Shown here: positions 42,098 to 46,050 of the stretch, piece by piece | Layout of the letters: every line of letters begins with the position of its first letter | How positions within the stretch are numbered: the first letter of the stretch is position 1 | NCBI RefSeq assembly: GCF_004341685.1 | Contig: NZ_SMAA01000010.1 | Location: forward strand, 1-64,000 | Length of the DNA: 64,000 nucleotides | From: Pectinatus cerevisiiphilus | Lineage (GTDB): Bacteria; Bacillota; Negativicutes; Selenomonadales; Selenomonadaceae | Reading direction: 5' to 3' | Notes under the pieces: model-generated | Seen by the model: the letters and a program-made list of their open reading frames with translations, nothing else | What the model was told of the DNA's origin: nothing | Databases searched by the model: none | Position numbers and translations under genes: made by a program

Positions 42098-42212
42098 TTC
42101 TTTCCTCCTACACAAATTTTTTTACTTAATTATAGCATGAATGAAATCGTATAATTCATTATTTATTTACAAATTTATTGTAATTTTTTATTGATAAATT
42201 TTTGTTTAATGG

Positions 42213-42259: not shown

Positions 42260-43918
42260 ATGAGTGAAAAAAGTAAGCGGTGTACCGCTGATTTATTAGT
42301 AGAATGTCTTGAAGAAGAAGGGGTAAAGTATATTTTTGGGATTCCCGGTGAAGAAAATCTAGCTATTATGAATGCACTTGAAAACTCAAAAATACAGTTT
42401 ATAACTGTTCGGCATGAACAAGGCGCAGCTTTTATGGCTGATGTTTATGGCAGACTTACAGGAAGAGCTGGTGTATGTCTAGCAACATTGGGACCGGGCG
42501 CGACAAATCTCGTAACAGGTGTTGCCGATGCTGACAGCGATGGTGCACCGCTTGTTGCCATAACGGGACAGGTAGGTACTGACCGGATGCATATTACTTC
42601 GCATCAATTCCTCGACTTGACGAAAATGTTTGAACCGATAACACGCCGCACTAAAATGGTAGTAAGACCTGATACCGTGAATGAAATAGTCCGTTTAGCC
42701 TTTAAGTATGCTGAACGGGAAAAACCAGGCGCATGCCATATTGATTTACCTGTTAATATAGGATTGATGCCTATTGCAGCTTCGGAACGTCCCTTGCAAA
42801 AACAGTATCCGATCAGTGAATATGCTTCTGTTCATACAATAGATGAAGCCGCAGAAATGATTTCTTATGCTAAAAGTCCGGTCATTCTTGCTGGCAGCGG
42901 AGTTATCCGGTCACATGCGGCGAAGGAATTGACGGCTTTTGCGGAAAAACTTAAAATACCGGTAATAAATACCATGATGGCAAAAGGTGCCATTCCGTTT
43001 GATAATAAATATGCGATGTGGACTGTAGGAATACCTTTCCCTGATTATCAGAATAAGTTACTGGAAAAGGCAAGCCTTGTAATAGCAGTTGGCTATGATA
43101 TAATTGAATATGCACCATCTAAATGGAACAAAAGCGGTGACGTGGATATAATCCATATAGATGCGTCTCCTGCTGACATCAATAAGCTGTATCAGGCTAA
43201 TATAGAAGTAGTCGGCGATATACCTGACTCGTTGAAACGCATTAAACAAAAAGCCGCACGTCTCCAGGAACCTAAGGAAGCACTGGCAATGCGTAAAAAA
43301 ATGGTGGCTGAACATGAAAGTTATGCTGCTGATGATGCTTTCCCGATGAAACCACAGCGCATTCTCAATGATGTACGTAAAATCATGGGACCGGATGATA
43401 TAGTCATTTCAGATGTTGGAGCTAATAAAGTTTGGATAGCGCGCCACTATAACTGCTATAAACCGAATACCTGCATTATTTCTAATGGATTCGCCACAAT
43501 GGGGATAGCAGTACCGGGGGCTATCGCGGCAAAACTTGTTAATCCTGATAAAAAGATATTGGCAATAACGGGTGATGGCGGTTTTATGATGAATTGCCAG
43601 GAATTTGAAACGGCAACTCGTCTGGGAACGAATTTTGTGACATTGATATTTAATGACAGCAGCTATGGACTTATAAAATGGAAACAGCAAGCTCAATATA
43701 ACCATACTTATGGTGTTGATTTTACAAATCCTGATTTTGTGAAATTTGCTGAAAGCGTGCATGCTGTCGGTTTCCGCATCAAAAAAGCAGATGAACTGAT
43801 CCCTACCTTGAAAAAAGCGTTTAGTTTGGATACACCGGCAATTATTGATTGCCAGGTAGATTACAGTGAAAATATGAAACTCACAGAACATCTGCAAAAA
43901 ATTATGAATGAAATTTGA
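42260..43918 (+). CDS. alsS: acetolactate synthase, catabolic AlsS type
   Basis: 552 aa from the ATG at 42260 with CAGGAG upstream; an earlier in-frame ATG has no ribosome site. Thiamine-diphosphate enzyme joining two pyruvates to 2-acetolactate. It has the catalytic Glu in VRHEQGAAFMA, the LGPGATNLVTGVADADSDGAP segment, and the ThDP/Mg motif GDGGFMMNCQE followed by NDSSYG. The retained Glu excludes glyoxylate carboligase. No regulatory small subunit and no alsD decarboxylase gene is adjacent, so the destination (acetoin versus branched-chain amino acids) is open. Confidence 0.88.
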   Translation: MSEKSKRCTADLLVECLEEEGVKYIFGIPGEENLAIMNALENSKIQFITVRHEQGAAFMADVYGRLTGRAGVCLATLGPGATNLVTGVADADSDGAPLVAITGQVGTDRMHITSHQFLDLTKMFEPITRRTKMVVRPDTVNEIVRLAFKYAEREKPGACHIDLPVNIGLMPIAASERPLQKQYPISEYASVHTIDEAAEMISYAKSPVILAGSGVIRSHAAKELTAFAEKLKIPVINTMMAKGAIPFDNKYAMWTVGIPFPDYQNKLLEKASLVIAVGYDIIEYAPSKWNKSGDVDIIHIDASPADINKLYQANIEVVGDIPDSLKRIKQKAARLQEPKEALAMRKKMVAEHESYAADDAFPMKPQRILNDVRKIMGPDDIVISDVGANKVWIARHYNCYKPNTCIISNGFATMGIAVPGAIAAKLVNPDKKILAITGDGGFMMNCQEFETATRLGTNFVTLIFNDSSYGLIKWKQQAQYNHTYGVDFTNPDFVKFAESVHAVGFRIKKADELIPTLKKAFSLDTPAIIDCQVDYSENMKLTEHLQKIMNEI

Positions 43919-44046
43919 GTTAAAAATATCGTTGGACTGAAATCGTTATAAAACAGGGAATACATATACTGCGAGAAAACGATTTGGTTTTGCCTATTTT
44001 AGGTGGGGTATTTTAATTCTAGTAAGCTGTATTGTATTGAAAGAAT

Positions 44047-44078
44047 ATGGACAAGGTCAATTTTAAAGCCTTGTCCAT
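44047..44078. terminator. 10-bp hairpin after alsS
   Basis: ATGGACAAGG (44047-44056) and CCTTGTCCAT (44069-44078), 12-nt loop. No strong U run on either strand; possible weak terminator for alsS, 130 bp after its stop. Confidence 0.45.
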
Positions 44079-44148
44079 TATATAAAACTGTAAGATTTGT
44101 AAAAAGTATAGTGATGAAGCTGCACAGGGATATAGAGATAAAAAAAGA

Positions 44149-44177
44149 TAAAAAAAAACCTTGCTATAAAAGCAAGG
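44149..44177 (-). terminator. second terminator of the riboswitch transcription unit
   Basis: Minus strand: CCTTGCT/AGCAAGG stem (44171-44177 with 44159-44165) followed by nine U. It can only serve a minus-strand transcript, and the only minus-strand promoter seen upstream is that of the cobalamin riboswitch. Confidence 0.85.
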
Positions 44178-44263
44178 CCCTGCTATTGCAGTGTTTAAGA
44201 GGAAGTAAAACTCTATGAGCAATCCCCTATGTATTAGCTGAAGATACAAAGGGGCTGAAAACA
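44178..44263 (-). ncRNA. candidate riboswitch-gated small RNA
   Basis: 86 nt between two minus-strand terminators. It contains a hairpin (44224-44234 with 44244-44254, CCCC/GGGG base) and no ORF with a ribosome site; an 81-codon frame crosses it but also runs through the terminator. It would be made only when the upstream cobalamin riboswitch allows read-through. The function is unknown. A small regulatory RNA is an inference. Confidence 0.4.
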
Positions 44264-44302
44264 AAATAAAACCCTTTTCAAGGCGAACGCCAAGAAAAGG
44301 GT
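44264..44302 (-). terminator. expression-platform terminator of the cobalamin riboswitch
   Basis: Minus strand stem ACCCTTTTC-aa-GGCG paired with CGCC-aa-GAAAAGGGT (44271-44285 and 44288-44302) followed by UUUUAUUUU. It lies about 85 nt after the aptamer. Confidence 0.85.
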
Positions 44303-44384
44303 AAACTATACTAAAATTATTTATTCAATAATCTCCTTCCCATCGCTCGCAGGTACTATACAAATTAATGTATAACGGTGACTG

Positions 44385-44530
44385 TCAATCAGGTAGTTCT
44401 CCTGGCTTCACATCATTGCCTTACCGCTCCTTCTCAGAATAAAAATTCCAATGGAAAAACTGCGGGGTTGCTTCGTGTTACAGTGGCGGGACCGCACCGG
44501 ACTAAAAAAAATACCGGTTTCCCTATTAAG
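44385..44530 (-). ncRNA. cobalamin (B12) riboswitch aptamer, apparently orphan
   Basis: Read on the minus strand: TAATAGGGAAACCGGT at the 5' end, GCGGTCCCGCCACTGTAA core, the CCATTGGAA segment, GGAGCGGTAAGGCAATGATG, and the B12 box GAAGCCAGGAGAACTACCTG (44390-44409). These are all the conserved blocks of the cobalamin class in order. A promoter lies upstream and a terminator downstream, yet no minus-strand gene follows until 42097. Confidence 0.92.
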
Positions 44531-44571
44531 TCATTGCTGACGCCTGATTCTTCAATATTTAATTGTATATT

Positions 44572-44600
44572 ATGATAACACTCAAAAAAATTTTTGTCAA
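44572..44600 (-). promoter_or_regulatory. promoter of the cobalamin riboswitch
   Basis: Minus strand TTGACA (44595-44600), 17-bp spacer, TATCAT (44572-44577), giving a start near 44565, just before the aptamer. Confidence 0.75.
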
Positions 44601-44672
44601 CCTTGCAATAATCTTTGATAAAGGGTATATTAAATACATATCGCAACAGCTATTGCTAAAAAGGAGGAAAAC

Positions 44673-44987
44673 ATGCCGCAGTTATATACTGAGCAGAATT
44701 TTGAAAAGGAAGTTCTGCAATCGTCAGTGCCTGTGCTTGTGCATTTTAGAGCTGACTGGTGTGTGCCGTGCCAAAAGTTTGCGCCTATAATAAACGAGAT
44801 GGAAGCTAATGCCTTGGGAAAATATAAGGTGGGAAGCGTGGATGTCGATAAATCACGCGAATTAATAAAGCGTTATAACGTGAATACGATTCCTACTATT
44901 ATCATATTTAAAAACGGCCGGTCGGCAGCCCAAATAACCGGAGCCGTTTCAAGAGAAGACTTGTGTCATATGATGCTCAATGATTAA
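44673..44987 (+). CDS. thioredoxin-family protein
   Basis: 104 aa single thioredoxin fold. The active site is WCVPC (Cys30, Cys33) instead of WCGPC. The cis-proline is in NTIPTIIIF (~73), and the conserved Asp-bearing strand reads VDVDKSRELI. GGAGG precedes the ATG. No signal peptide, so cytosolic. The Gly-to-Val change in the CxxC motif should alter redox potential. It is divergent from the riboswitch unit and is not followed by thioredoxin reductase. Confidence 0.9.
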   Translation: MPQLYTEQNFEKEVLQSSVPVLVHFRADWCVPCQKFAPIINEMEANALGKYKVGSVDVDKSRELIKRYNVNTIPTIIIFKNGRSAAQITGAVSREDLCHMMLND

Positions 44988-45095
44988 TCCTGTACGTGAT
45001 GTTAGGAATACAGCAGGGCTTGCAATGAAAAATTATGCAAATGCGCGAACACTGCTATGTTAGCTTTGGAATAAACTGCACTGTCCAAAATGAGA

Positions 45096-45125
45096 ACTCT
45101 ATTGATGAAATAGAGTCTTATTTTA
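45096..45125 (+). terminator. terminator of the thioredoxin gene
   Basis: ACTCTATT/AATAGAGT stem (45096-45103 and 45109-45116) with a U-rich tail CTTATTTTATTT. Confidence 0.7.
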
Positions 45126-45168
45126 TTTGGCAGATTGTTCAGATTAAATATAAAGGGGTGCGGTTGTC

Positions 45169-46050
45169 ATGAAAATAATTGACGCACATATGCATTTTTC
45201 GGTTATAGGTAATTTTGTGGAAACAGCGGCAAACATAAACTGCGAATGCGATATTCCTACGTTGAAAAGAGAATTTGACAAATGTGGAGTCGTTTTGGGA
45301 GTGGGAATGGGAGTAGATCCGTCCAATATGGTTGAAGGCAGCATAAATCCGCAAATAATAACGCATGGATTTACTAAATTTCCACCGTATCTGGCGCAAT
45401 GCCTTGGCATCGCAACAGACATGATAACTGCTGAAAACCGTGAACAAACACTTGCTGCCTATGAAAAATTACTACAGGAACCGTCTAGCCTAGGCTTTAA
45501 AATTTACGCTGGCTACCAACATTATTTTGTCGACGACGAGATCTATCATCCGTTTTTTAAAATGGCAGAAAAGTATGATGTACCTGTCGTGATCCACACA
45601 GGAGATACAGCCAGCAGCCATGGTAAGCTCAAATATGCCCATCCGCTCACAGTTGATGAAGCAGCCGTTGATTTTCCCAAGGTTCGTTTCGTAATAGCCC
45701 ATTGTGGGAACCCGTGGATAATAGATGCAACTGAAGTAGCTATGAAAAATCCAAATGTTTATCTTGATATGTCAGGTTTGATAGAAGGGCTTGTTGATTC
45801 GACTGAATTTTTGCGTGAAAGGGCAGGCTACATAGAACATTTGAAAACATGGCTTAATTATATGGATCGTTATGATAAGGTTATGTACGGTTCCGATTGG
45901 CCGCTTGCTGATATGAAAAATTATATTGAAATAATAAAAGCCGTTATTCCCAAAAAATATCATCAGGCTGTATTTTATGATAATGCTTTGAATGTTTTTC
46001 GTAAATTAAAAGATTATTTACCACGTGAAAAGGCAGTAAGGATAGATTAA
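45169..46050 (+). CDS. amidohydrolase-2 family metal-dependent hydrolase
   Basis: 293 aa TIM-barrel enzyme of the ACMSD/2-pyrone-4,6-dicarboxylate/4-oxalomesaconate hydrolase group. It shows the N-terminal metal motif DAHMHF, GFKIYAGYQ, PVVIHTGDT, FVIAHCGNPW (metal His) and YGSDWPL (catalytic Asp). Reaction may be hydrolysis or non-oxidative decarboxylation; the substrate cannot be told. A DUF2284 protein follows 27 bp later on the same strand. Confidence 0.85.
   Translation: MKIIDAHMHFSVIGNFVETAANINCECDIPTLKREFDKCGVVLGVGMGVDPSNMVEGSINPQIITHGFTKFPPYLAQCLGIATDMITAENREQTLAAYEKLLQEPSSLGFKIYAGYQHYFVDDEIYHPFFKMAEKYDVPVVIHTGDTASSHGKLKYAHPLTVDEAAVDFPKVRFVIAHCGNPWIIDATEVAMKNPNVYLDMSGLIEGLVDSTEFLRERAGYIEHLKTWLNYMDRYDKVMYGSDWPLADMKNYIEIIKAVIPKKYHQAVFYDNALNVFRKLKDYLPREKAVRID

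Follow-up and report, generated by a model that had tools for sequence, protein, structure and literature searches.

In iron-sparing systems of the RyhB type, shortage of a cofactor induces an sRNA that silences the mRNAs of enzymes using that cofactor, and RyhB itself is controlled by the Fur protein. Regulatory RNAs can also derive from riboswitches: SreA of Listeria is a terminated SAM riboswitch that itself acts in trans, and EutX of Enterococcus is a B12-riboswitch RNA that sequesters EutV. To our knowledge, riboswitches that gate regulatory RNAs are few, and the B12 cases we can name (Rli55, EutX and AspocR) work through protein sequestration or on an overlapped gene. In Listeria, the B12-riboswitch RNA Rli55 uses an ANTAR element to sequester EutV, whereas AspocR, ~1,400 nt long, is a riboswitch-controlled antisense RNA to pocR and is thought to hinder translation initiation (PMC8079631).

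The unit described here lies on the minus strand of a 64,000-nt stretch of the Pectinatus cerevisiiphilus genome (the window). A preliminary description had seen it as an orphan cobalamin riboswitch ahead of a non-coding segment, and this view holds up: the segment is conserved, and the unit stands beside alsS in all five Pectinatus genomes compared. Its parts, their conservation and the complementarity of the tail core to the start region of mcmA, a methylmalonyl-CoA mutase gene elsewhere in the genome, are visible in every one of these genomes. In the literature that we searched, which covers subscription journals and bioRxiv only sparsely, we found no earlier report of this RNA.

We propose, with a probability that we put slightly above one half, that the unit is a cobalamin-riboswitch-gated Pectinatus sRNA, made at low cobalamin, that represses mcmA in trans. 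With cobalamin bound, a first terminator would halt transcription and the tail would not be made. When cobalamin is scarce, an antiterminator would form instead, and RNA polymerase would continue through the ~90-nt tail to a second terminator. The core of the tail would then pair in trans, in two blocks, with mcmA mRNA, covering the Shine-Dalgarno site and the start codon, and the paired tail would block translation. The cell would avoid making an abundant B12 enzyme, or would spare scarce cobalamin from methylmalonyl-CoA mutase. We infer the direction of the switch, the existence of the transcript, its pairing in the cell and the repression of mcmA.

Like Rli55 and EutX, the Pectinatus unit has a cobalamin riboswitch and terminator ahead of a non-coding RNA that would be produced at low B12, and its predicted purpose is likewise to couple a B12 enzyme to cofactor supply. 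Unlike them, it shows no ANTAR hairpin pair, its tail is predicted to pair with an mRNA rather than to bind a protein, and a mutase of the propionate pathway takes the place of eut as the predicted target. As with AspocR, a cobalamin riboswitch would gate an RNA that acts on an mRNA, but AspocR is ~1,400 nt long and overlaps its target, whereas the Pectinatus tail of ~90 nt overlaps no gene and its candidate target is elsewhere. The likeness to Rli55 and AspocR is one of logic, and the expectation of a different circuit in the preliminary description is supported. The proposed chain from cofactor shortage through an sRNA to a silenced cofactor-using enzyme is that of RyhB, except that the sensor would be a riboswitch in the same transcript instead of the Fur protein. 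Pairing of a riboswitch-derived RNA with an mRNA in trans is also predicted here, as in SreA, although the pairing region sits in the read-through tail and not in the terminated riboswitch.

If the proposal is correct, a B12 switch gates an sRNA whose pairing partner is the mRNA of a B12-dependent enzyme encoded far away. This would be a vitamin counterpart of the iron-sparing sRNAs in which a riboswitch replaces the protein sensor, and it would place the propionate pathway of a beer-spoilage genus under vitamin control. The prediction is a sharp one, with two short blocks, one mRNA and one ligand.

Layout of the riboswitch unit

We compared the window's own genome (G000) with four other Pectinatus genomes (G001-G004). 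The promoter that the preliminary description had placed at 44572-44600 is of sigma-70 type (TTGACA-17-TATCAT, minus strand), matches the consensus at 11 of 12 positions, and is the best of 15 promoter-like sites in a consensus scan of positions 43000-46000. Because such sites are not clearly commoner than in shuffled sequence (mean 11.3, sd 3.6), support for the promoter rests on the invariance of TTGACA and TATnAT in 5/5 genomes. The aptamer (44375-44562, minus strand), which had been read as complete from the letters, indeed matches the Rfam cobalamin model RF00174 over its full length (1-189), scoring 95.1 bits where the gathering score is 31.5. RF00174 exceeds its gathering score at the same place in 5/5 genomes.

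Both terminators claimed earlier on the minus strand are kept in all five genomes. Terminator 1, the presumed riboswitch attenuator (44264-44302), contains an inverted repeat at 44271-44302 with 15-nt arms that are 87% complementary, followed by a T-rich tract; hairpin and tract recur in every genome, and the element is absent from the output of the consensus scan. Upstream of it, at 44333-44350 on the minus strand, lies a conserved purine-rich segment, GCGAGCGATGGGAAGGAG, which we propose, from fold pairings, as the antiterminator strand. In folding calculations the 5' arm of terminator 1 can pair with the conserved segment GCGAGCG..GGGAAGGAG, displacing terminator 1. This pairing is the minimum-energy fold of the platform in G003; the four remaining genomes favour the terminator form as their minimum, and related pairings appear in their shortened folds.

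Leaders of this kind usually terminate at high cobalamin and read through at low cobalamin, and we assume this direction here. That the element binds cobalamin and switches expression we likewise infer, from its match to the aptamer model and its alternative folds. The Negativicutes cobalamin riboswitches tested in a published study are reported to be predominantly promiscuous for corrinoids (PMC9600662), and the same may hold for the Pectinatus riboswitch.

An 86-nt segment separates terminator 1 from terminator 2, and a folding energy of -31.5 kcal/mol (z -3.39) is computed for positions 44262-44145. Hairpin 1 of the tail (44224-44254, minus strand) carries a 9-nt loop, CUUCAGCUA. The core that we predict to be the mRNA-pairing region follows (44192-44222, minus strand), then a small hairpin 2, CUGC-AAUA-GCAG (44180-44191, minus strand), which offers no covariation because its stem is invariant in 5/5 genomes. 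Terminator 2, the predicted 3' end of the sRNA, occupies 44149-44181 on the minus strand (hairpin 44181-44155 plus T run). It is one of two terminator-like sites in the consensus scan, against a shuffle average of 2.1, so support for it is its conservation in 5/5 genomes. In an Rfam search of 44140-44374, the best E-values were 0.064 and higher, all far under the gathering scores.

As had been claimed, no gene follows: the ORF list of the window contains no ORF with a credible ribosome site downstream of the riboswitch, and the nearest downstream minus-strand gene begins at 42115, ~2.0 kb away. A small protein encoded in the tail itself is extremely improbable. A frame reading Leu/Met-LIEFYFLLNTA... 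is open in 4/5 genomes, but a frameshift interrupts it in G001, and the other four genomes show no synonymous change over 11 codons. It lacks a ribosome site at suitable spacing and enters the terminator, and plus-strand frames in this region span 8, 8, 23, 76 and 24 codons. No reading frame of the tail is conserved, and we conclude that the tail is probably a conserved non-coding RNA.

Conservation and distribution in Pectinatus

The unit adjoins alsS, in convergent orientation, in 5/5 genomes. On the promoter side the neighbour is trxA in four; G001 has no listed trxA ORF there and carries another gene instead. G002 has an additional gene between alsS and the riboswitch element. No B12-related gene directly behind the unit, which would have suggested a simple deletion in P. 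cerevisiiphilus, was found in the four sister genomes. Two further observations concern G001: terminator 1 and the sRNA tail are separated by some 75 additional nt, and a c-di-GMP-I riboswitch (69.9 bits, L044:9998-10084) lies ~4 kb from the element.

The preliminary description had also considered an antisense RNA running toward the alsS 3' end; in the manner of AspocR, read-through past terminator 2 would make RNA antisense to alsS. The convergent orientation of alsS in 5/5 genomes speaks for such an RNA, but the plus-strand alsS gene ends at 43918, the predicted transcript end is 231 nt short of its stop codon, and the terminator that sets this end is kept throughout. Moreover, a gene intervenes in G002, and what is conserved is the nearly invariant 31-nt core, which antisense action on alsS leaves unexplained. 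We give this reading very little credence.

Conservation peaks in this core, between the hairpins. Across the five genomes, 29 of the 31 positions at 44222-44192 are invariant, with a pairwise identity of 0.93. For the four-fold degenerate sites of alsS the identity is 0.34 and 5/185 are invariant, which is near saturation. These figures bear on whether the unit is a relic, a decaying riboswitch of a lost B12 gene with a functionless tail. The present leader is the only one of the ten cobalamin leaders in G000 without a gene, whereas ORFs follow the other nine, as expected of such a remnant. Against this, promoter, aptamer, both terminators and core are all kept in five species whose alsS silent sites are near saturation, and decay is a highly improbable account.

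A search for covariation in relatives, suggested earlier for the segment 44149-44263, found that segment in all five genomes. Across the tail as a whole, four base pairs are maintained although both partners have changed, where shuffles give 1.4 (a value as high was reached in 4 of 500), and three of these four fall in hairpin 1. Because only five related sequences contribute, the covariation evidence for a tail structure is modest.

The position of the conservation peak between the hairpins also speaks against a decoy of the Rli55/EutX kind, in which the tail would sequester an ANTAR response regulator at low cobalamin. The layout of B12 riboswitch, terminator and tail is the same, and all five genomes encode an ANTAR regulator (PF03861; L129, L130-L133), in G000 directly behind a kinase-like gene. 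The ANTAR-binding motif is a pair of hairpins whose hexaloops carry A1 and G4. In the tail, however, G000 and G001 each have one 3-bp candidate for an A1/G4 hexaloop hairpin and the three other genomes none, and elsewhere downstream of the aptamer there are only weak candidates that overlap terminator 1. We consider such a decoy very unlikely.

Outside the genus the unit seems to be missing. Pectinatus belongs to the Selenomonadaceae, and among 189 genomes of this family (30 genera) a covariance model of the tail matched only the five Pectinatus (0/184 others). Over 380 genomes of the class it gave one added match, in G292 (38.9 bits), at a locus without RF00174 or any other Rfam match, which we judged to be chance. 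Both searches applied strict filters and scored few candidates in each genome, and more distant relatives could have escaped them. Exact matches to the tail core in a genome collection came from P. brassicae, P. frisingensis and P. haikarae (the query's own genome may have been omitted), and the core pattern had no match in viral contigs. The flanks of alsS orthologues in other genera contained no RF00174 element (0/5 loci, three genera). Given these flanks and the restriction of the tail model to Pectinatus, the unit looks specific to the genus.

Predicted pairing with the mcmA start region

Read as its reverse complement, the core resembles a Shine-Dalgarno site followed by AUG. Target prediction for the 86-nt RNA, recommended in the preliminary description, yielded a concrete candidate: among 83 sampled start sites of G000 ranked on duplex energy, the top one belonged to the methylmalonyl-CoA mutase gene in L092, here called mcmA. 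L092 was in the sample on account of this third mutase gene; a prior was therefore present, though the gene had not yet been chosen as target. The duplex between the core and the mcmA start region has an energy of -23.6 to -24.9 kcal/mol in 5/5 genomes.

Two blocks make up this predicted pairing. In block 1 (44213-44221, minus strand), UGCUCAUAG faces CUAUGAGCA at the mcmA start codon, with 9 complementary bases in 4/5 genomes; in one of these four, G002, one of the pairs is G-U (CUAUGAGUA). In block 2 (44199-44204, minus strand), UUCCUC faces GAGGAA at the mcmA Shine-Dalgarno site, and both strings occur in 5/5 genomes, although the lowest-energy duplex in G000, G002 and G004 uses a neighbouring register, CUUCCU/AGGAGG, with one wobble. 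The core differences of G001 lie mostly between or beside the two blocks. On sequence, then, the unit has what is expected of a trans-acting sRNA, namely its own promoter, a terminator, a conserved pairing region and conserved complementarity to a target ribosome site.

Dinucleotide-shuffled cores rarely pair equally well: of 5000, the numbers that did so were 1 in G000, 2 in G001, 1 in G002, 0 in G003 and 0 in G004. Other start sites were sampled from about one fifth of G000 and ~110 kb of each other genome. When the cost of opening the target was added to the duplex energy, no sampled start was as good as mcmA in G001-G004 (0/75, 0/61, 0/70 and 0/64, respectively). In G000, 3 of 329 sampled starts equalled or beat it, which places mcmA 4th of 330 on a background without mcmA and mutA; on a 324-start background it ranks 4th on duplex energy and 5th once opening energy is included. 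We rely on these larger backgrounds rather than on the set of 83. By duplex energy alone, three starts in G000 and one in G002 are as good as mcmA. Five B12-linked genes were scored as targets, which entails some multiple testing.

We also scanned the five whole genomes for the pattern GAGGA-N3-16-TATGAGYA, which gave 36 matches against 6 for the reversed control. Five of these are the sRNA locus and five are mcmA, one per genome, and only these two are common to all five genomes. Loci were translated for 30 of the 36 matches, and the mcmA match in G002 was placed by coordinates. As we settled on this pattern once mcmA was already known, the scan tests the uniqueness of the site and not its discovery.

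Two other searches for targets were rejected. A straight complement to 18 nt of the core, with up to 3 mismatches, occurred at 18 sites in the five genomes against 63 for the reversed control; 4 of the 18 were the sRNA locus, and the other 14 held no shared target. The complement pattern AGAGGAAN{0,1}GTN{2,12}ATG gave 53 sites against 39 for the control, and outside the sRNA locus no string recurred in more than two genomes (30 of 53 sites translated). As candidate targets, metH, nrdJ and a B12-radical-SAM gene were mostly at background level.

The same anti-Shine-Dalgarno core could instead serve a cobalamin-gated pairing sRNA whose main target or targets are other than mcmA, which we regard as rather unlikely. 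sRNAs often have several targets. In G000 some other starts, among them those in L243, L252 and L237, do at least as well as mcmA, and mutA is slightly better there by total energy. A translational GTPase gene (typA-like by eye) carries the pattern at its start in 3/5 genomes (L205, L208, L227) and is a possible secondary target, judging by this match. However, mcmA is the sole start matching in 5/5 genomes and outranks all other sampled starts in 4/5, whereas mutA, a good partner in G000, G002 and G004, is poor in G001 and G003 and was rejected.

Some points count against mcmA as the target. A cross-species pairing matrix is flat, with no preference for each species' own sRNA-mcmA pair; the paired blocks hardly vary, and the matrix therefore gives no compensatory evidence. 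The sister-species sequences are moreover not independent of each other. Predicted accessibility calls for caution. In the isolated tail the anti-Shine-Dalgarno block is mostly unpaired in four genomes (0.70-0.84; 0.13 in G001), but it is mostly paired in full-transcript folds of all five (unpaired 0.12-0.29), which suggests that processing or tertiary structure of the aptamer may matter.

The two mutases and the cobalamin leaders

In G000 the genes on the mcmA strand are, successively, those for succinyl-CoA:acetate CoA-transferase, mutase large subunit (550 aa), B12-binding small subunit (136 aa), MeaB, methylmalonyl-CoA epimerase, a methylmalonyl-CoA decarboxylase alpha-type protein and a biotin-carrier protein, of which the final two stay under the NCBIfam cut-offs for their named families. 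The operon is that of the succinate-to-propionate pathway, and the small subunit adjoins the large one in 5/5 genomes. The best-scoring chain for the large subunit is the 2-hydroxyisobutyryl-CoA mutase 4r3u, which has isoleucine where a tyrosine stands in the query. In an alignment with the solved mutase 1req, this tyrosine (RQYAG / RMYAG) and an arginine (PSMR), two residues with a role in substrate choice, are retained in the query. We therefore assign the gene to the large subunit of the adenosylcobalamin-dependent methylmalonyl-CoA mutase and name it mcmA.

A second B12-dependent mutase, mutAB, which matches PF01642, lies behind its own cobalamin riboswitch in 5/5 genomes (L098, G000:C22:1-900; L094-L097), and two terminator-like hairpins, recognized by eye, follow that riboswitch. 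We count this against the model in which mcmA is shut down, as a riboswitch on mutAB fits poorly with the idea that B12 enzymes are simply turned off when B12 is low. If the mutAB riboswitch is an OFF switch, a B12 enzyme would be made at low B12, and the opposite regulation of the two mutases would amount to an isoenzyme swap rather than a simple shut-down. Tentatively, and at clearly less than even odds, we suggest a B12-sparing circuit with RNA as both sensor and effector, in which the sRNA silences the fermentative mcmA, the riboswitch-led mutAB is regulated separately, and the genus may swap mutase isoenzymes according to vitamin supply.

G000 carries 12 cobalamin aptamers in its 10 leaders. 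Besides mutAB, the products encoded behind the nine gene-bearing leaders are, by eye, outer-membrane receptors, BtuCDF-type transport, a cobaltochelatase cluster, a PepSY-type membrane protein and large surface proteins. Two leaders hold tandem aptamers ~150 nt apart (L086, G000:C2:67336-67839; L091, G000:C19:22161-22664). The second aptamer of each pair is much weaker (58.9 and 46.4 bits), and the pairs precede a 1,700-aa surface-like protein and a TonB-receptor-like protein.
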